A stretch of 46,651 bases of DNA from Acetobacteraceae bacterium. GTDB taxonomy: Bacteria > Pseudomonadota > Alphaproteobacteria > Acetobacterales > Acetobacteraceae. This document shows positions 200-13,391 of the stretch, piece by piece. The notes below the pieces were generated by a model. That model made no database searches and was not told the origin of the DNA. It worked only from the letters and a program-made list of their open reading frames with translations. The stretch lies in contig DAHWFB010000056.1 in assembly GCA_027326105.1 (NCBI GenBank), forward strand, positions 1 to 46,651, given 5' to 3'. Positions within the stretch are counted from its first letter, which is position 1. Every line of letters begins with the position of its first letter. The translations under genes were made by a program, and so were the position numbers.

Positions 200-973
200 C
201 TAGCCGGCGAGCACGTCCGCCATCCCGTACAGCCCGGCGGGTCTGGCCCTGAGCCAGAGGGCGGCGCGCAGCGCGCCCTCGGCGAAGGCGCGGCGGTCGA
301 AGGCGCGGTGGGTGAGCGTGATCTGCTCCGCCCCCGAGGTGAACAGGAGGCTGTGCTCGCCCACGATCTGCCCGCCGCGCAGCGCGGCGAAGCCGATCGC
401 GCCCGGCTTGCGCGCCCCCGTCGCCCCATGGCGCCCGCTTTCGGCCACCGCCGCGAGGTCCTGCCCCCGCGCGGCGGCGACCGCGGCCCCGAGGGCGAGC
501 GCGGTGCCCGAGGGGGCATCGACCTTCTGGCGATGGTGCATTTCGAGGATCTCGGCGTCGTAGCCCTCCGCCGGCAGGGCGGCGGCGAGCCGGGCGGCGA
601 GTTCGAGCACGAGCGCGACGCCGGTGGAGAAATTGGCCGCGCGGACCACCGGCGCGCGCGCCGCCGCCGCCGCGATGGCGGCCTCGTCGGCGGCGGCGAG
701 CCCGGTGGTGCCGAGCACCCAGCCGCAGCCCGCGGCGGCGATCGCGCCGGCGTGGGCGGGGATCGTGCTGGCGTGGGTGAAGTCGATCACCACGTCGGCG
801 GCCGCGGCCAGCGCCGCGATGCCGGGCAGCAGCGCGACCCCCGCGGGCACCGCTCCCGCCTCCTCGGGGCGGCAGATGCCGCCGGCGATCGGCAAGCCGC
901 GGGCGCGCGCCTCCTCGGCGACCAGCCGTCCCATCCGCCCGCTCGCCCCGGCGATCCCGATGCGCGGCGTCAC
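200..973 (-). CDS. dapB: 4-hydroxy-tetrahydrodipicolinate reductase
   Basis: Reduces the DapA product to tetrahydrodipicolinate with NAD(P)H in the cytosolic diaminopimelate/lysine pathway, which also feeds peptidoglycan. The 257-aa protein has the N-terminal Rossmann motif GIAGASGRMG, and the family signature EMHHRQKVDAPSGTAL with the catalytic His-His and Lys. The C-terminal substrate domain ends in a typical LTHRAFDRRAF segment. Length is slightly short for the family (about 270). The start is GTG at 973 and overlaps the TGA of the upstream ABC ATPase (GTGA), so it is probably translationally coupled to that gene. Placing dapB last in an ABC transporter operon is unusual. Confidence 0.95.
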   Translation of the reverse strand: MTPRIGIAGASGRMGRLVAEEARARGLPIAGGICRPEEAGAVPAGVALLPGIAALAAAADVVIDFTHASTIPAHAGAIAAAGCGWVLGTTGLAAADEAAIAAAAARAPVVRAANFSTGVALVLELAARLAAALPAEGYDAEILEMHHRQKVDAPSGTALALGAAVAAARGQDLAAVAESGRHGATGARKPGAIGFAALRGGQIVGEHSLLFTSGAEQITLTHRAFDRRAFAEGALRAALWLRARPAGLYGMADVLAG

Positions 974-2295
974 GGCACTTCCTCGAGGCTGAACTGATCG
1001 GCCTCCTCGTCATAGCTGTAGAGCTCGGCGTAGCGCCCCCAGGAGATGGCGATGCGCAGGCTCTCCTCGGCGTATTCGGGGGACATGTGGTCCTCGAGCT
1101 CGTCGCGGAAGCGCAGCGCCGGCGCCCGGTGGTTCCAGCGCTCGTCGAGCACCGAGCGGATGGCGGCGACCAGCGGCACGTTGGCGCGCAGGGCGGCGGC
1201 GAAGATGCGCTTGCGCGCCTCGGTGTCGGCGGCGACGTACCGGCGCCCCTCCTCGGTCAGCCGGATGTCGCCCTCCTCGAGTTCGGCGAAGCGCAGCAGC
1301 TGGAGGGTCTCGCCGAGCGGCAGCAGTTCGTCGGCTTCGAGCTGGAGGGCGGCGGCCAGCGGCGGCAGGTCGGCGCGGCCCTCGTAGGGGGGCGCGGCCA
1401 GCGTCTCCATCAGGCCCGCCATCAGGTTGGTGCCGACCGGATGCAGGGGGGTCGCGAAGCCCGCCGCGGCGGGGGCCGCGGCCTGGGCGCGCACCTCCGC
1501 CGCCGCCGGGCGGCGGGTCATCAGCGCGTAGATGTCCTCCACCTTCTGGCGGAAGGCGGGGTCCTGGCGGTTGCGCGGATGGGCGAACGGCACCGCGAGC
1601 TCGCTCGCCACCCGCCCGGGGTTGGCCGCAAACACCAGGATGCGGTCGCACATCAGCACCGCCTCCTCGATGTTGTGGGTGACCATCAGGATCGACTGCA
1701 CCGGCAGCCGCCGCTCCGCCCAGAGGTCGATGAGGTCGGTGCGCAGCGTCTCGGCGGTGAGCACGTCGAGCGCGCTGAACGGCTCGTCCATGAGCAGCAG
1801 GTCGGGGTGGACGACCAGCGCCCGGGCGAGGCCGACGCGCTGGCGCATCCCGCCGGAGAGTTCCTTGGGGTAGGCGCTCTCGTAGCCGCCGAGGCCGATC
1901 AGGTCGATCGCCTCCTCCGCCCGCCTGGCCCGCTCGGCGCGCGGCACGCCCTGCGCTTCGAGCCCGAGTTCCACGTTCTCCCGCACGCTGAGCCAGGGGA
2001 AGAGGGCGAAGCTCTGGAACACCATCGCCACCCCTTCGGCCGGGCCCGAAAGCGGCTGCCCGCGCCACAGCACCCGCCCTGCGCTCGGGGTGAGCAGGCC
2101 GGAGACGATGCGCAGCAGCGTCGACTTGCCGGAGCCGGAGCGGCCGAGCAGGCCGACGATCTCGCCCGCCGCGAGGCGGAGATTGACCTCCTCGAGCACC
2201 ACCAGTTCGGTGCCGGCGTCCTTGGGGTAGGTCTGCCGGCAGGACTGGACCTCGAGCAGGGCCGCGGGGAGCACGGGCGGGGCGATCTGGTCCAT
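970..2295 (-). CDS. ABC transporter ATP-binding protein with C-terminal AAA-associated domain
   Basis: Cytoplasmic ATPase of an importer of the nitrate/sulfonate/taurine class. Residues about 10-250 form the ABC domain: Walker A GRSGSGKST, signature LSGGMRQRVGLARAL, Walker B LLLMDEPFSALD and the H-loop segment VTHNIEEAV. The remaining roughly 150 residues are an extra C-terminal winged-helix-like region matching, from memory, the AAA_assoc_C family that occurs on this ATPase type. It lies 15 nt after the stop of its fused permease and overlaps dapB by 4 nt. No periplasmic binding protein is adjacent, which is common for this subfamily, so the substrate cannot be named. Confidence 0.88.
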   Translation of the reverse strand: MDQIAPPVLPAALLEVQSCRQTYPKDAGTELVVLEEVNLRLAAGEIVGLLGRSGSGKSTLLRIVSGLLTPSAGRVLWRGQPLSGPAEGVAMVFQSFALFPWLSVRENVELGLEAQGVPRAERARRAEEAIDLIGLGGYESAYPKELSGGMRQRVGLARALVVHPDLLLMDEPFSALDVLTAETLRTDLIDLWAERRLPVQSILMVTHNIEEAVLMCDRILVFAANPGRVASELAVPFAHPRNRQDPAFRQKVEDIYALMTRRPAAAEVRAQAAAPAAAGFATPLHPVGTNLMAGLMETLAAPPYEGRADLPPLAAALQLEADELLPLGETLQLLRFAELEEGDIRLTEEGRRYVAADTEARKRIFAAALRANVPLVAAIRSVLDERWNHRAPALRFRDELEDHMSPEYAEESLRIAISWGRYAELYSYDEEADQFSLEEVP

Positions 2296-2310
2296 GGCGG
2301 ATCCGTCCGG

Positions 2311-4077
2311 TCAGAAGCTGGTGCGGCGGCGCGCGTAGTCATAGAGCGGGCGCCACACCAGGCGGTTGAAGAGGAGCACGAACGCCGACATTACCGCGAC
2401 CCCGAGCACCACCTTGGACGTCGCGCCGTCGGCGGTCGCCTGCGCGATATAGGCGCCGAGGCCGGGGGCGACCAGCGTCACCTTTCCCCAGGCCGCCAGT
2501 TCGGCGACGATCGAGGTGTTCCAGGCGTTGCCGGTGGCGGTGATCGCCCCGGTGACGAGATAGGGCAGGATGCCGGGCAGGATCACCCGCCGCCACCACA
2601 GCAGCCCGCCGACCCTGAAATTGGCCGCCGCCTCCCGGAGATCGCCGGGAAACGCGGCGGCGCCGGCGACGACGTTGAACAACACATACAACTGCGTCCC
2701 GAGCAGCATCAGCGGCGTGAGCCACACCGCGGGGTCGAGGCGAAAATAGACGATCACCAGAACCATCGGCGGAAACAGAAGATTGGCCGGGAAGGCGGCG
2801 AGGAACTGCGCCACCGGCTGGGCGATGCGGGCGTAGGCCGGGCGCAGCCCCAGCCAGACCCCGATCGGCACCCAGACGATGCAGGAGATGGCGAGCACCG
2901 CGATCACCCGGGCCAGCGTGAAGAGGCCGTAGAGCAGCGCCTGAAGGGCGTCGCTCCAGGCCAGCGAGGCGGCGAGGAAGCTCGCGATCCGCCAGAGCGC
3001 GGCAGCGAGTGCCACCGCCAGCACGACGTAGAAGAGCGCATCGACCAGCCGCGAGGGCGGCCCGGCGGCGCGGCGCCGCCGCCCGGGCACGGCGAGCGGC
3101 AGGCCCGCGAGCCGGTCCGCCAATCCGCCCAGGCGCTGGCCGGCGAGGCGCAGGAAGCGGGTGCGGCGGACCAGCTTGAGCACCCAGGGGTCGGGCGGCG
3201 CCAGCGTCGCGATGGTTTCGAAGCGGAACTTGGCCGACCAGGCGACCAGCGGGCGGAACAGGATCTGGTCATAGGCGAGGATGACCGCGAGCATCGCGAG
3301 GATCGCCCAGGCGATCGCACCCAGCCGCTCATGGGTCAGCGCCAGCGCCACGTACGAGCCGATGCCCGGCAGGGTGAAGGTGCGGTTGCCGACCGAGACC
3401 GCCTCGGAGGCGACCACGAAGAACCAGCCCCCCGACATCGAGAGCATGGTGTTCCACACCAGGCCGGGCACCGCGAAGGGCACGTCGAGCCGCCAGAAGC
3501 GCTGCCACGGGGTGAGCCGGAACAGCCGCGCCGCCTCGATCAGATCCTCGGGCTCGGTGACCAGGGACTGGTAGAAGCTGAACGCCATGTTCCAGGCCTG
3601 GCTGGTGAAGATGACGAAGATCGCGGCGAATTCCGCGCCCAGCACGCGGCCGGGAAAGAGGTTGAGGAAGAAAGTGACGGTGAAGGTGAGAAAACCCAGG
3701 ATCGGCACCGACTGGAGGATGTCGAGCGCGGGGATGACGAGCAGGGCGGCGCGGCGCGAGCGGGCGGCGAGCGGGGCCACCGTGAAAGTGAAGGCGAGCG
3801 AGGCCACCAGCGCCGCGAACATCCGCATGGTGGTGCGCAGCGCGTATTCCGGCAGATAGGAGGGCGCGAGATGGATCACCGCCGCACTCGCCTCCGGCAG
3901 GGGCGCCAGCGTGCTGCGGGCGGCGCCGGCCACCGCCACCAGCGCCCCGAAGACGCAGAGCATCGCCCCCGCGTCCCAGAGGTTGAGCAGGCGCCGGCCG
4001 CTGGCCAGGGCTGGCAGGGCAGTGCTGGACATGAGGCGAAACCCGACAGTGACGAGGATGCCGCGCCCCGCGGGCAC
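2311..4077 (-). CDS. ABC transporter permease, two permease domains fused
   Basis: Inner-membrane permease of about 588 aa containing two homologous BPD_transp_1 halves. Each half carries an EAA loop: EAARLFRLTPWQRFWRLD in the first, and EAAANFRVGGLLWWRRV in the second. Each is surrounded by several hydrophobic helices, with an Arg/Pro-rich linker around the middle (VPGRRRRAAGPPSR). One polypeptide thus replaces the usual permease dimer. Start choice is uncertain. A GGAGG at about 4084-4088 sits 6 nt before GTG 4077, whereas the homology-like start MSSTALPAL (ATG at 4032) has no visible ribosome binding site. It is followed after 15 nt by the ATPase gene. Confidence 0.85.
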   Translation of the reverse strand: MPAGRGILVTVGFRLMSSTALPALASGRRLLNLWDAGAMLCVFGALVAVAGAARSTLAPLPEASAAVIHLAPSYLPEYALRTTMRMFAALVASLAFTFTVAPLAARSRRAALLVIPALDILQSVPILGFLTFTVTFFLNLFPGRVLGAEFAAIFVIFTSQAWNMAFSFYQSLVTEPEDLIEAARLFRLTPWQRFWRLDVPFAVPGLVWNTMLSMSGGWFFVVASEAVSVGNRTFTLPGIGSYVALALTHERLGAIAWAILAMLAVILAYDQILFRPLVAWSAKFRFETIATLAPPDPWVLKLVRRTRFLRLAGQRLGGLADRLAGLPLAVPGRRRRAAGPPSRLVDALFYVVLAVALAAALWRIASFLAASLAWSDALQALLYGLFTLARVIAVLAISCIVWVPIGVWLGLRPAYARIAQPVAQFLAAFPANLLFPPMVLVIVYFRLDPAVWLTPLMLLGTQLYVLFNVVAGAAAFPGDLREAAANFRVGGLLWWRRVILPGILPYLVTGAITATGNAWNTSIVAELAAWGKVTLVAPGLGAYIAQATADGATSKVVLGVAVMSAFVLLFNRLVWRPLYDYARRRTSF

Positions 4078-4132
4078 GCGCATCCTCCGGCTCTAGCCCA
4101 ATCCGCTGCCCGCTGTCACCCGGCCGGAGATG

Positions 4133-4636: not shown

Positions 4637-6178
4637 TCAGACCATCAGTTCGATGAGGAAGGGACCGGGGCGGCGGTTGGCGTGGTCGAGCAGTTCGGCG
4701 AAGCGCTCGAGCGTTGCCGCCCGCGCCGCCTCCACCCCCATGCCGCCGGCGAGACGGGGCCAGTCGAGCGCGGGATCGGCGAGATCCATCATCCCGTGCG
4801 CGGTCGGGCCCGGGATCGCGCCGACGCCGGCAAATTCCTTGAGCAGGATCGCGTATTTGCGGTTGGCGAGCAGGATGGTGGTGACGTCGAGCCGCTCGCG
4901 CGCCTGGGTCCACAGCGACTGGAGGGTGTACATCGCCGAACCGTCGCCCTGGAGCACGATGACCCGCCGCCCCGGCGCGCCGATCGCAGCCCCGGTGGCC
5001 AGTGGCAGGCCCTCGCCGATCGCGCCGCCGCAGAGTTGCAGCCAGTCGTGCGGCGCGGCGGCGGCGAGGGAGGCGAAGAGATCGCGCCCGTAGCTGATGC
5101 TCTCGTCCACCACGATGGCATCCTCGGGGAGCGCGCGGGCGAGGATCGCGGCGACGCCTTCGGGGCCGACCGCGCCGCGCACCGGGCCTTCGGGGAGCGG
5201 GCGCGGGGCGGCGGGCGGAGCGGCGGGGGCGCGCAGCGCCTCGGCGAGGCGGGCGAGCGCTTCCGGCCCGTCCTGCCCGATGCCGGCGAGCACATGGACC
5301 GCGCAGTCGGGCGGTTGCAGGCGGCCCGGCTTGCCGGGATAGGCGAAGAAGCCCACCGGCGGCGGGGCATTGACGGCGACGAGGTGGCGGGCGCCGGCGA
5401 AGGCCGCGAGCGCCGCGTCGATCGGATAGGGAACCCGCCCGATGGCCGGGCGCCCGCGCCCGCGCGGGATGCGCCCGACAAAGGTTTCGACCAGCGGCCG
5501 CGCCCCGGTGGCGGCACGGATGCGGGCGGCGGCGGCGAGACCGGCTTCGCCCGCCGCCGCGCCGCCGAGCAGGAGCACCGCGGGTTCGCCCGAACGCAGG
5601 GCACGGGCGGCTTCCGCGACCGCCGCGGCACTCGCCCGCGGCGTGGGCGGCGGCGGGTCCGGGGTGGCGGCGATGCCGCCCTCGCCCCAGGCGGTATCGG
5701 CGGGCAGGATCAGGGTCGCGACCTGCCCGGGCGGGGTGCGGGCGGCGGTGATGGCCGCCGCCGCGTCCGCGCCGACGCCCCCGGCGGAGGTGGCGGTGCG
5801 CACGAACCCGCCGACGCCGCGCGCCCAGCCTGCGGTATCGGCGGTCAGCGGCGGGTCGAGCGGGCGGTGGTACGTCGCCTGGTCACCGACGATGTTGACC
5901 ACCGGCGAGTGGGCGCGGCGGGCGTTGTGGAGGTTGGCGAGCGCGTTGGCGAGGCCCGGGCCGCAGTGGAACAGCGTCCCCGCCGGCTTGCCGGCGAGGC
6001 GCGCGTAGCCGTCCGCCGCCCCGCTCGCCACCCCTTCGAAGAGGGCGAGCACGCAGCGCAGGCCGGGGATGCGGTCGAGGGCTGCGACGAAGTGCATCTC
6101 CGACGTGCCCGGGTTGACGAAGCAGGTGTCGACGCCGCCGGCGAGCAGCGTATGGACCAGGCTTTCGGCGCCGTTCAT
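4637..6178 (-). CDS. ThDP-dependent enzyme of the acetolactate synthase-like (IlvX-like) family
   Basis: A 513-aa thiamine diphosphate enzyme with the usual three-domain layout. The Pyr domain contains catalytic-type Glu48 in LFEGVASGAADGYAR; the PP domain contains GDGSAMYTL followed by LLANRKY, the Mg/ThDP-binding GDG-N motif. It closely resembles, from memory, proteins annotated acetolactate synthase large subunit and mycobacterial IlvX, whose reaction is unproven; they lack the FAD-region length of true AHAS (about 570-600 aa). The ATG at 6178 follows a GGAGGGGGG ribosome binding site; a longer GTG start at 6208 is less likely. It sits between the alcohol oxidation genes and dut. Carboligation or 2-oxoacid decarboxylation is possible, but the substrate is unknown. 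Confidence 0.8.
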   Translation of the reverse strand: MNGAESLVHTLLAGGVDTCFVNPGTSEMHFVAALDRIPGLRCVLALFEGVASGAADGYARLAGKPAGTLFHCGPGLANALANLHNARRAHSPVVNIVGDQATYHRPLDPPLTADTAGWARGVGGFVRTATSAGGVGADAAAAITAARTPPGQVATLILPADTAWGEGGIAATPDPPPPTPRASAAAVAEAARALRSGEPAVLLLGGAAAGEAGLAAAARIRAATGARPLVETFVGRIPRGRGRPAIGRVPYPIDAALAAFAGARHLVAVNAPPPVGFFAYPGKPGRLQPPDCAVHVLAGIGQDGPEALARLAEALRAPAAPPAAPRPLPEGPVRGAVGPEGVAAILARALPEDAIVVDESISYGRDLFASLAAAAPHDWLQLCGGAIGEGLPLATGAAIGAPGRRVIVLQGDGSAMYTLQSLWTQARERLDVTTILLANRKYAILLKEFAGVGAIPGPTAHGMMDLADPALDWPRLAGGMGVEAARAATLERFAELLDHANRRPGPFLIELMV

Positions 6179-6277
6179 CCCCCCTCCCTTCCCCGACCGT
6201 GCGACCACCGGAGCGGACGCAGGATCGGGGCAGAAGGGGCGCGATGCAACCCCGCCGCGCGCCGCCCGCCGCCCGGT

Positions 6278-7438
6278 TCAGGGCACCCGGGAGACGAGCG
6301 GGGTGGTGGAGGCGGAGGCGGCCGCGAAACCGAGCCGGCGGGGACCGGCGGGGTAGCCGTTCTGGGCGAGGATGAAGGCCATCACGTCGGCGTACTGGCG
6401 GGGGGTGAGGCTGGCCGGGCGGCCGGCCGGCATCTGCCCGGCGAGGAAGGAGAAGATCGCGCCCACCGAATAGCCCATCGACGCGGAAGCGAAGCCCGGG
6501 CCCTTCAGCGTCGGCCCGACCAGGCCCTGGAGGTGGCCGCCGTGGCAGGCGGCGCAGTTCTGCGCGAACACGCGGCCGCCCGCCGCCGCCTGGGCGGTGG
6601 TGAAGAGGGCGGGAACCGCGGGCGCCGCGGGGGCGAGCCGGGGCAGGGCGAGCGGGGCGATCAGCCCGGAAAGATGCGCCTTCTCCTGCAGGGCGAGAAG
6701 TTTGGCGAGCCCGGCTGCGAAGCGCTCGCCGGCGGCGTGACCGGCGGCATCGTCGGCGGTGAGTGCGGCGATCACCCAGGCGGCGTGGGGCTGGTGCAGA
6801 AGCCGGGTCCGGAAGCGGAGCCCGTGGGCGCGGGCGAAGGCGGCGAGCGCGCGGTGGCGGGCGAGAAAGGCGAGATAGTCGGGCTGCCAGACGACCGCAC
6901 CCGCGACCTTGCCGGCCGCCAGCGCGGCCAGACTCTGCGCGTCCGAATCGAAGATATCGGCGGCGAGCGCGGGATGGCGGGCGGCGAACAGGCTCGACGG
7001 CGCGAGATAGGTGACGCCGAGGCGGAAACCCCTGGGCAGGGCCGCGAGCGGCGCCGGCGCGGTGCCGACGGTGACCAGGACGTAGCCGGTCTTGGCGTAG
7101 GCGGCGGCCAGCGTGAGCCCTTTCGGCACGCCGGTGCCCGGCGCCGGCAGCGGCACGCCCATCACCACGTCGCAGCGCGTGGCGAGCTTGCGCAGGAGCG
7201 GGCCGCGCACGCCCTTCTTGCCGGCGCGGGCGCTGCTGAAGGGGACCAGCGTGGCCGCGCTGCCCGCGGCCGCGGCGACCGCGCGGGCCACCTTCGCGTC
7301 GCGCCCGGCGAGCGGACTCGCCCGGTCGATGCAGAAGCGCATTCCCGGCGCGGCGGCGGAGGCGGGCTGCGTGAGCAGCCCGCCGGTGAACGCGAGGAGG
7401 GTGAGGGCCGCGGCCCTACTTGCCCAAGCCGAAGACAT
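6278..7438 (-). CDS. Quinoprotein-associated periplasmic binding-like domain fused to cytochrome c
   Basis: Exported 386-aa protein. A Sec signal peptide (about 1-30, ending ASAAA) leads into a region (about 31-260) resembling the MoxJ/XoxJ-type substrate-binding-like proteins that accompany PQQ dehydrogenases. A class I cytochrome c domain follows, with CAACH at 295-299 and probable Met336 axial ligand in GQMPAG. In known methanol oxidation clusters the J protein and the cytochrome (XoxG/MxaG) are separate genes; here they are one chain. It overlaps the upstream PQQ dehydrogenase gene by 23 nt, so coupled synthesis is likely. Inferred role: electron acceptor and maturation or docking partner of that dehydrogenase in the periplasm. 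Confidence 0.8.
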   Translation of the reverse strand: MSSAWASRAAALTLLAFTGGLLTQPASAAAPGMRFCIDRASPLAGRDAKVARAVAAAAGSAATLVPFSSARAGKKGVRGPLLRKLATRCDVVMGVPLPAPGTGVPKGLTLAAAYAKTGYVLVTVGTAPAPLAALPRGFRLGVTYLAPSSLFAARHPALAADIFDSDAQSLAALAAGKVAGAVVWQPDYLAFLARHRALAAFARAHGLRFRTRLLHQPHAAWVIAALTADDAAGHAAGERFAAGLAKLLALQEKAHLSGLIAPLALPRLAPAAPAVPALFTTAQAAAGGRVFAQNCAACHGGHLQGLVGPTLKGPGFASASMGYSVGAIFSFLAGQMPAGRPASLTPRQYADVMAFILAQNGYPAGPRRLGFAAASASTTPLVSRVP

Positions 7439-9137
7439 AGAGATGCCCTCCCCGGGGGATGTTCTTGATCGAAGGATCGTTCGCCATCACCCCGCCCCAG
7501 ATCGGCGAGGCGCCGCCCCAGCCCGCCCAGAGCGCGACATACTGCTTGCCCGCGATCTCGAACGTCGAGGGCTGGCTCACGATGCCGGAGGCGAGTTGCG
7601 GGCTCTCCCACAAGACCTTGCCGGTCTTGGCGTCGAAGGCCATCAGATGCCCGTCCGCGCGGCCGCTGAAGACCAGGCCGGACGCGGTGGTGAGCACGCC
7701 GGAATTCCACGGCGCCTTGGTCTGGTACTGCCAGACGCGCTTGCCGGTCGAGAGGTCGATCGCCTGCAGCGAACCCCAGCCCTTGGCGCCGGGCTGCGGC
7801 ACCACCTGGAAGCTCTCGCCCAGGAACGGCAGGCCGCGCAGATAGGAGACCGGCGCGCCCTTCATCGTCATGCAGGCGTGCAGCGTCGGCACGTAGGCCA
7901 TGCCGGTCGCGGGATCGACCGACATCGGCCACCAGTTCTTGCCGCCGAGGAAGCTCGGGCAGGTGAAGATGCCCTTGGTCAGCGTCGGGCGCACCGCGTC
8001 GTTGGTGAGCGTGCCGGCGGCGGCGGTGACCGATTTGATCGAGAGCGAGTGCACGAAGGGCCTGGCGTAGATCAGCTTCCCGGTGGTGCGGTCGATCGCG
8101 TAGAAATATCCGTTGCGGTCGGCGTGCACGATCGCCTTGTAGGCGTGGCCCTTCCAGGTCACGTCGGCGAGGATCGATTCATTGGTGCCGTCGTAGTCCC
8201 AGGTGTCGTGCGGGGTGAACTGGTAATACCACTTGAGCGCGCCGGTCGCGGGATCGAGCGCGAGCACGGAATCGGTATAGAGGTTCCTGCCCGGACGCAT
8301 CGTGGCGAGCCAGGGTCCCGGATTGCCGACGCCCCAGAAGAGGGTTTTCGTCGCCGGATCGTAGGTACCGGTGAGCCAGGCGCCGCCGCCGCCGTGCTTG
8401 TAGGCGCCCTTGGGCCAGGTGTCGCCGCCGGGCTGGTTCGGCGCCGGAATGGTGAAGCGCTTCCAGGAAATCGCGCCGGTTTTCGCGTCCAGCGCGGCGA
8501 TGAAGCCGCGCGCGCCGTATTCGCCGCCCGATTCGCCGACGATCACCTTGCCGTCCACGACCAGCGGCGCGACGGTGAGCGCGTAGCCCACGCCGGGGGG
8601 TTTCAGCGTGGTATCCCACACGATCTTGCCGGTGGTGGCCTGGAAGGCGAGGACGTGATTGTCGAGCGTCGCCATGTAGACCAGCGACCCGGCGACCGCG
8701 ACCCCGCGGTTGACCACGTCGCAGCACACCGTCTTGGTCGCGGTCGGCGGAAAGACGCGGTCGTATTTCCACAGCAGCTTGCCGGTGAGCGCGTCGAACG
8801 CGCGCAGATGGTCCATCGGCGTGGTGACGAACATGTAGCGGCCGTTGACGATGGGCGCCGCCTCGTAGCCGGGCTTGAGCCCGTCGTTGTAGCTCCAGAC
8901 CGTGGTGAGTTTCGCGACGTTGGCGGGATTGATGGCGGTGAACGGCGCGTAGGCCTGGCCGGAATAGTCGCGGCGGAACATCAGCCAGCCGGGATCGGAC
9001 TCCGCCTTGGCGAGACGGGCGGCGGTGACGGCGGGATAGGGCGGCATCGCCGCCGCGGCGGGAAGCGCGCTCGCGAGCAGCCCGCCGCCGGCCAGGGCGG
9101 CGGCGCGAATCGCGAGGGGGGAGCGGGAACGTTTCAC
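7416..9137 (-). CDS. PQQ-dependent alcohol dehydrogenase, predicted lanthanide type
   Basis: Periplasmic quinoprotein oxidising primary alcohols to aldehydes. The 573-aa precursor has a signal peptide (about 1-30, ending ALPAAAA) and an eight-bladed propeller with repeated tryptophan-docking motifs. Visible active-site features are the vicinal disulfide pair Cys138-Cys139 (TVCCDVVNRG), metal ligands Glu206 (GESGGEYGARG) and Asn272 (GVGNPGPW), and catalytic Asp314 in HDTWDYDGTNE. Asp316, two residues on, is the extra ligand that marks XoxF/ExaF/PedH-type lanthanide enzymes; calcium enzymes have Ala or Ser or similar there. There is no C-terminal haem domain, so it is not a quinohaemoprotein. 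The GTG start at 9137 has an AAGGAAGG site upstream; a longer frame exists without support. Confidence 0.92.
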   Translation of the reverse strand: MKRSRSPLAIRAAALAGGGLLASALPAAAAMPPYPAVTAARLAKAESDPGWLMFRRDYSGQAYAPFTAINPANVAKLTTVWSYNDGLKPGYEAAPIVNGRYMFVTTPMDHLRAFDALTGKLLWKYDRVFPPTATKTVCCDVVNRGVAVAGSLVYMATLDNHVLAFQATTGKIVWDTTLKPPGVGYALTVAPLVVDGKVIVGESGGEYGARGFIAALDAKTGAISWKRFTIPAPNQPGGDTWPKGAYKHGGGGAWLTGTYDPATKTLFWGVGNPGPWLATMRPGRNLYTDSVLALDPATGALKWYYQFTPHDTWDYDGTNESILADVTWKGHAYKAIVHADRNGYFYAIDRTTGKLIYARPFVHSLSIKSVTAAAGTLTNDAVRPTLTKGIFTCPSFLGGKNWWPMSVDPATGMAYVPTLHACMTMKGAPVSYLRGLPFLGESFQVVPQPGAKGWGSLQAIDLSTGKRVWQYQTKAPWNSGVLTTASGLVFSGRADGHLMAFDAKTGKVLWESPQLASGIVSQPSTFEIAGKQYVALWAGWGGASPIWGGVMANDPSIKNIPRGGHLYVFGLGK

Positions 9138-9195
9138 GATCGGTTTCCTTCCTTGTTGGTTGTGGTCGGAGGCGGTCGGGGCGGGCCTGGCTGGT

Positions 9196-9579
9196 TCAGG
9201 CGCCGCCTGTCTGCGCGGCTTCGAGTGCCGCCGCTTCCGCGTCGGTGAACAGGCGCGAGCGGGTGAGGAAGCGCAGTCCGGTGGGACGCTCGAGGGAAAA
9301 CATCCCACCGTTCCCTGGCACCGCATCGATGATCAGCTGGGTGTGGCGCCAGTAGGCGAACTGCGAACCGCTCATGTAGAAGGGAACGCCGGCGATTTCG
9401 CCGAGCAGCACGTCGACGTCGCCGACCAGGAATTCGCCGGCCGGAAAACACATCGGCGCGCTGCCGTCGCAGCAGCCGCCGGACTGGTGGAACAGCAGCC
9501 CGCCGTGTTCGGCGGCGAGGCGCGCGATCAATGCGCACGCCGCCGCCGTCGCCACCACCCGCGCGGGCCGCTCCGCCAT
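9196..9579 (-). CDS. DUF779 family protein
   Basis: A 127-aa protein of the DUF779 family, recognised by the segment HQSGGCCDGSAPMCF and by its position beside an aldehyde dehydrogenase, its usual neighbour. Cys36, Cys37 and Cys44 form a compact cluster that could bind a metal or an Fe-S centre; no function is established that I know of. The ATG at 9579 has a strong GGAGGGGGG site. It lies 26 nt after the aldehyde dehydrogenase stop and 58 nt before the PQQ dehydrogenase, inside the sigma-54 operon. Confidence 0.85.
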   Translation of the reverse strand: MAERPARVVATAAACALIARLAAEHGGLLFHQSGGCCDGSAPMCFPAGEFLVGDVDVLLGEIAGVPFYMSGSQFAYWRHTQLIIDAVPGNGGMFSLERPTGLRFLTRSRLFTDAEAAALEAAQTGGA

Positions 9580-9605
9580 TCCCCCCTCCCCCGCGTGGCC
9601 CGCGC

Positions 9606-11156
<1,551 letters not shown>

Positions 11157-11218
11157 GGTTCCTCCCTTGCTTGTTGCCGTGCCTCGGGCGCCCCGACGGC
11201 GCCTTCGGGGGAGGCATA

Positions 11219-11234
11219 AGCAAAGTTCGTGCCA
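11219..11234 (-). promoter_or_regulatory. Sigma-54 (-24/-12) promoter of the alcohol oxidation operon
   Basis: Read on the minus strand the sequence is TGGCACG-AACT-TTGCT, an exact match to the RpoN consensus TGGCACG-N4-TTGCW, with the invariant GG and GC elements correctly spaced. It ends about 62 nt upstream of the aldehyde dehydrogenase ATG, leaving a leader of roughly 50 nt. The divergent gene is a sigma-54-dependent activator, which strongly supports function. Confidence 0.88.
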
Positions 11235-11288
11235 GGCATGCACGCAGCCGATCGCCCGCAGAATTGCCGGCGGAGCGGGGAATGGCGT

Positions 11289-11366
11289 GACAAAATGTCC
11301 CATGGGACCGGGCGCTGGGCGCCGGCGCCCCTTTTTTGCATGGCCGCATCGTGCCATGTTCATGGC
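11289..11366. promoter_or_regulatory. Candidate activator binding sites (inverted repeats) upstream of the sigma-54 promoter
   Basis: Three palindromic elements lie 55-150 bp upstream of the -24 box, where enhancer-type sites of AcoR-like activators normally sit. They are GACA-AAA-TGTC (11289-11299), overlapping GTCCCATGGGAC (11297-11308), and GCCATG-TT-CATGGC (11353-11366). Which, if any, is bound is inference. The same 285-bp gap (11157-11441) must also hold the promoter of the divergent activator gene; no clear -35/-10 pair is seen for it. Confidence 0.45.
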
Positions 11367-11441
11367 TCGCGTCCGCTGGTTCCGGGGCGCGCAAGCGCCG
11401 GGCAACCTGGCTCAGGTTCCCGGCAAGCGCGGGGGAGGACG

Positions 11442-13391
<1,950 letters not shown>

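Follow-up and report, generated by a model that had tools for sequence, protein, structure and literature searches.

A putative one-piece J-cytochrome partner of a PQQ-dependent alcohol dehydrogenase in the Acetobacteraceae

Can a MoxJ/XoxJ-like protein and an electron-accepting cytochrome be carried in one exported polypeptide, and what would such a polypeptide do beside its enzyme? This question was raised by a gene in the window, the whole stretch of 46,651 nucleotides that was analyzed (Acetobacteraceae bacterium, assembly GCA_027326105.1, contig DAHWFB010000056.1). The role of XoxJ/MxaJ-type proteins is still debated, and the gene adjoins that of a PQQ-dependent alcohol dehydrogenase.

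Organization of the fused gene and identity of its two halves

The open reading frame (ORF) was located at 6278-7438 on the minus strand, which the original prediction had not specified, and it encoded 386 aa from an ATG start with zero internal stops. Its first 23 nt (7416-7438) were shared with the 3' end of the ORF encoding the dehydrogenase (7416-9326), exactly the overlap that had been predicted. On the same strand, a signal peptide was predicted by eye at residues about 1-29 (7352-7438), with a charged start, then a hydrophobic stretch and an ASA/AAP cleavage region. The MoxJ/XoxJ-like domain, supported by a weak TIGR03871 match, an independent HMM and alignment, covered residues 31-262 (6653-7348), followed by a linker at residues 263-281 (6596-6652), in which the hydropathy profile gave no second signal peptide, and by a class I cytochrome c domain at residues 282-357 (6368-6595). 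Judged from the sequence, J-like domain and class I cytochrome c are fused in frame within one polypeptide, and the expectation of a single 386-aa protein, predicted to be exported and containing both parts, was borne out.

The cytochrome half was assigned by two Pfam families. Residues 282-357 scored 40.1 bits against Cytochrome_CBB3 (PF13442) and 27.1 bits against Cytochrom_C (PF00034), above the curated cut-offs of 27 and 21.3 respectively, and the single CxxCH of the domain was found as the heme attachment site CAACH at residues 295-299 (6542-6556), which together define a class I cytochrome c. The scores against the NCBIfam models of MoxG (cytochrome cL; 18.9 bits, cut-off 147.8) and PedF (13.3 bits, cut-off 122) were far too low, and by these profiles the cytochrome is no recognized MoxG or PedF equivalog.

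The identity of the N-terminal half was less straightforward. TIGR03871 was its only NCBIfam match among binding proteins, with 16.9 bits (E=0.0038) for the whole protein and 18.8 bits (E=0.00096) for the N-terminal domain alone, and no Pfam family matched this domain at E up to 0.01. The MoxJ-type HMM search proposed along with the original prediction thus gave a match, but a weak one that lay far below the curated cut-off of 212 bits, by which strict membership of TIGR03871 was ruled out. A J HMM was then built independently from eight J sequences, from which the window and its clade were left out to avoid circularity. This HMM gave 37.9 bits with residues 1-265 of the window protein and 34-55 bits with five clade relatives, whereas none of 500 shuffled versions of the sequence exceeded 6.5 bits, and no match was reported in the cytochrome part. 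As the score lay so far above that of the shuffles, the J-like domain is real and not a product of chance; the predicted MoxJ/XoxJ-like nature of this region was supported, and the objection that it might match no binding-protein fold failed.

Residue conservation showed the same trend. In an alignment of 14 J domains, the window protein kept the invariant residues, among them C36, C89-D90, G94, P96, W184 and P186, and CDVVMGVP at residues 89-96 (7151-7174) was identical in all ten rows of an alignment of the window with nine J sequences from related loci. When the profile of the 14 J domains, one row of which was the window itself, was compared with solved structures, XoxJ 6onp ranked first (E=4.6e-48), then 5sv6 and MxaJ 9ism. 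Detectable homology, conserved cysteines, CDVVMGVP and a gene adjoining a PQQ dehydrogenase gene, the further marks used here for a J-type protein, were all present. On this sequence evidence, the N-terminal domain is homologous to J proteins, yet too divergent for TIGR03871's own rule.

Structure modeling was of limited help: with a mean pLDDT of 54.9 and 53.9, both AlphaFold predictions were of poor quality. Among the matches listed by Foldseek for the first model, solute-binding proteins prevailed, with low TM-scores of 0.17-0.24 by query, and VIA-align with the second model gave Z of about 10 over mostly about 90 residues, corresponding to one lobe. XoxJ and MxaJ chains were absent among the 50 matches listed by each of Foldseek and VIA-align, which with models so poor is no counter-evidence. 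The comparisons weakly suggested a solute-binding-type fold only.

The neighboring dehydrogenase and known systems

The product of the adjoining gene (7416-9326, minus strand; ORF as listed, the true start probably being an internal GTG near residue 64) scored 573 bits against TIGR03075 (cut-off 480) and was assigned to the methanol/ethanol family of PQQ-dependent alcohol dehydrogenases. Its best solved relative was the quinoprotein ethanol dehydrogenase 6zcw (PedH; E=4.3e-120), and the methanol dehydrogenase 4mae gave E=3.6e-103; the dehydrogenase tree described below was drawn without a SolV sequence. At the predicted metal site, Asp-Tyr-Asp (D377-Y378-D379; 8190-8198, minus strand), a lanthanide-type signature, aligned with Asp-Phe-Asp in 6zcw and with Asp-Phe-Ser in 1flg, the calcium enzyme ExaA. 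W-D-Y-D and adjacent cysteines were found in all 30 dehydrogenases of the window clade, and an excerpt of PMC8170126 states that enzymes of this type coordinate their lanthanide through a conserved additional Asp. The neighbor thereby combined the PQQ family, adjacent cysteines and an Asp two residues after the catalytic Asp, by which the ExaF/PedH kind was recognized, and is most likely a lanthanide-type ethanol dehydrogenase as far as its sequence can tell.

Upstream of the dehydrogenase on the minus strand, a DUF779 protein (9196-9597) and an acetaldehyde dehydrogenase ExaC (9606-11405; NF050026 938.5 bits, cut-off 900) were encoded, the latter ORF given as listed with its match beginning at about 11087. 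A sigma-54-dependent regulator with a GAF domain was divergent on the plus strand (11229-13391, ORF as listed, probably starting further inside). PqqE was present in the same genome. Directly downstream of the fusion, the minus strand carried a thiamine-diphosphate enzyme of the acetolactate synthase/benzoylformate decarboxylase type (4637-6208; NF005760 over cut-off).

The original prediction had held that J protein and cytochrome are encoded separately in known clusters and that the arrangement is possibly a new architecture. The first statement was contradicted by Methylacidiphilum XoxGJ (PMC8498564, PMC6688271, PMC5623727, PMC8170126), a XoxG-XoxJ fusion also named cytochrome cGJ, which the available portions of these papers and of PMC8779874 describe as the electron acceptor of XoxF. 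Among the 25 listed of 96 papers matching fused J names, the two that contained XoxGJ concerned, to judge by their titles, a Methylacidiphilum strain and an extremophile methane oxidizer. The claim of a new architecture was ruled out by this published fusion, and half-annotated fusions were also present in public Burkholderiaceae records. The window protein resembles XoxGJ in being one polypeptide of J domain and cytochrome c beside a PQQ-dependent lanthanide-type alcohol dehydrogenase, but the partner of XoxGJ is the methanol dehydrogenase XoxF, whereas that of the window looks ethanol-type. Moreover, the order in the window is J then cytochrome, whereas the name XoxGJ suggests cytochrome first, and Methylacidiphilum also has a full separate xoxJ, its fused J being truncated, according to the part of PMC6688271 available.

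The locus also resembles ExaF-ExaG-ExaJ of Methylorubrum and PedE/PedH-PedF-PedG of Pseudomonas putida, in which an ethanol-type PQQ dehydrogenase is likewise accompanied by a cytochrome and a J-like protein; as far as the excerpts of PMC7391723 and PMC12997753 go, ExaG/ExaJ and PedF/PedG are separate genes, whereas in the window they correspond to one gene. With the proteins of TIGR03871 (quinoprotein dehydrogenase-associated putative ABC transporter substrate-binding protein), the window protein shares gene context, CDVVMGVP and the cysteine pair; unlike them, it has a cytochrome at its C-terminus and misses the cut-off by a wide margin. In the search listings and cited passages of open-licence PMC text, no report was found of a J-cytochrome fusion beside an ethanol-type dehydrogenase. 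What is new is the ethanol-type context and the recurrence of J fusions; the fusion principle itself is known, and the window represents an uncommon variant.

Distribution and origins of J-cytochrome fusions

The taxonomic family of the window, represented by 397 genomes, was searched with a two-row fusion profile. Matches with E up to 1e-6 were obtained in 83 of the 397, many via the cytochrome part only, and the fusion in one uninterrupted frame was found in 15, the window included (13 single uninterrupted matches, and 2 with both pieces sharing one frame). Two further family genomes had one stop between the parts and hence adjacent genes, and in genome G311 the frame length looked fused, but stops were found between the parts. 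The fusion was also located on three Burkholderiaceae plasmids (Burkholderia multivorans, Caballeronia and Paraburkholderia), whose records name the product a transporter substrate-binding domain protein, a c-type cytochrome or a hypothetical protein. The architecture search suggested with the original prediction was positive in both groups.

For phylogenetic analysis, a dehydrogenase tree of 67 rows was built from loci with a recognized dehydrogenase inside the stretch examined; L001 and L113-L129 (short or duplicate stretches) and the second dehydrogenase in L148 were left out of this count. The rows were chosen, not random, and many of the regions sampled had been selected because their open frames were long or their J scores weak, so the sampling favors fusions in the following proportions: 34 fused partners, 27 separate J proteins, 5 cytochromes with another N-terminal domain and 1 locus without J. 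The window clade (30 rows) contained 18 fused loci, 11 loci with J and cytochrome as adjacent genes, and the J-less locus L157. A homolog of the ExaC aldehyde dehydrogenase accompanied 8 of the 18 fused and 7 of the 11 separate loci of this clade, in stretches of unequal length. The peak 17-residue hydropathy upstream of the heme motif was 1.40 in the window linker and 0.30-1.65 over the 34 fused linkers, and reached 1.91-2.29 in the 11 separate cytochromes of the window clade, which have their own signal peptide.

A second fused group comprised 15 rows, with dehydrogenases about 40% identical. Its J domains scored better on TIGR03871 (two were scored, at 107 and 123 bits), and its cytochrome gave a weak, below-cut-off PedF match of 33 bits. 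In Thiolinea disciformis (L021, 4950-6494), an over-cut-off J (252 bits) and a third cytochrome type, with 69 bits against TIGR03874 (below cut-off), were connected by a long proline-rich linker, and the gene lay beside that of a PQQ dehydrogenase. The three fused groups stayed apart in the cytochrome tree, which was based on few columns. We infer from these sequences that J and cytochrome were fused at least three separate times, with different cytochromes. Within the window clade, a grouping of the 18 fused loci with J-less L157 (19 rows) was not rejected (p-AU 0.396), and the label FUSED required 4 changes over all 67 rows, gains and losses pooled; a single origin of the window-type fusion is left undecided by these values.

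In L157 (genome G066, 2182-2856), nested in the fused clade, the J part was missing, and the dehydrogenase and a cytochrome with its own signal peptide were kept. Since over-cut-off J genes occur elsewhere in the genome of L157, the J protein may act there in trans or may be dispensable. To judge from these gene arrangements, the J-cytochrome tether is not indispensable in L157.

Proposed function of the fusion protein

Given the Asp-Tyr-Asp of the dehydrogenase and the adjoining ExaC-type gene, the gene most likely encodes a fused ExaJ-ExaG-like protein, and we consider it probable that this is a dedicated periplasmic one-piece partner of the adjacent enzyme. The protein would be exported to the periplasm and heme would be attached at CAACH. 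Using PQQ and a lanthanide, the dehydrogenase would oxidize an alcohol, of which ethanol is the most likely, and the electrons would pass via the cytochrome domain towards the respiratory chain; both steps are proposed from what is known of the families. The J-like domain would hold the dehydrogenase, either to load cofactors, the role suggested for XoxJ/MxaJ, or as a mere dock, and would thereby keep the electron acceptor beside the enzyme; the aldehyde would next be oxidized by the ExaC-type aldehyde dehydrogenase. The binding step was adopted from proposals for XoxJ, MxaJ and PedG in the available parts of PMC12997753 and PMC7391723. The tether between maturation factor and electron acceptor that the original prediction envisaged would be plausible.

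A different and rather unlikely explanation would make the J-like part a passive spacer or a relic in decay, with the cytochrome alone at work and with maturation J-free or served by a canonical J encoded elsewhere in the genome. The low TIGR03871 score would fit such decay, as would the faster divergence of the J domain than of its neighbors (29-40% identity between the window and 8 relatives, compared with 57-65% for the dehydrogenase). The absence of the J part in L157 points the same way, and on contig C18 of the window's own genome a further dehydrogenase is accompanied by a cytochrome and a J protein that are encoded separately, the J protein scoring over the cut-off. However, the residues invariant among J domains were kept, and so was the frame, in the 15 family genomes and 3 plasmids, despite J identities to the window of only 31-39% (five fused relatives), which does not fit decay.

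Much less probable is a role like that of a solute-binding protein, in which the J-like domain would bind not the dehydrogenase but a small ligand, be it an alcohol, PQQ or a lanthanide. Periplasmic solute-binding proteins are indeed the fold family of this domain according to the profile and the low-confidence models, and the same strand encodes ABC-transporter permease and ATPase components at 970-4083, some 2 kb downstream of the fusion and separated from it by two other genes; but in the profile comparison XoxJ and MxaJ came out as the nearest solved structures, and the constant neighbor among relatives is the dehydrogenase. An artefactual single ORF, created from two genes by a frameshift or an assembly error, can practically be dismissed: eleven relatives do have two adjacent genes, but the same merged frame recurs in many independent assemblies, and the window linker lacks the second signal peptide that a simple merger would leave, so this candidate was ruled out by the shared frame and the linker hydropathy.

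For the preferred one-piece partner, the closely related enzymes provide a natural series, with fused lineages of different cytochromes, separate sister loci and one J-less relative, in which a role of J in cofactor loading, cytochrome docking or neither could be tested. A bolder and more doubtful idea, put forward tentatively, is that J and cytochrome were fused repeatedly and independently, with a different cytochrome each time, because J, besides acting as a transient maturation factor, is a standing dock by which the electron acceptor is held on the mature dehydrogenase.

Two further arrangements were observed among the relatives. At L094 (6476-9494; genome G000, contig C119), and also at L095, L015, L016 and L017, an unrelated domain of about 230 aa without any Pfam match was fused to the same cytochrome family; this arrangement occurred in two genomes of the window's family and three Eremiobacterota/WPS-2 contigs, and the PQQ-dehydrogenase-like protein preceding it showed no adjacent cysteines or W-D-x-D by pattern scan. 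On the Burkholderia multivorans plasmid (L182, 5427-5744), an annotated high-potential iron-sulfur protein was encoded directly after the fused gene and could be the next electron carrier.
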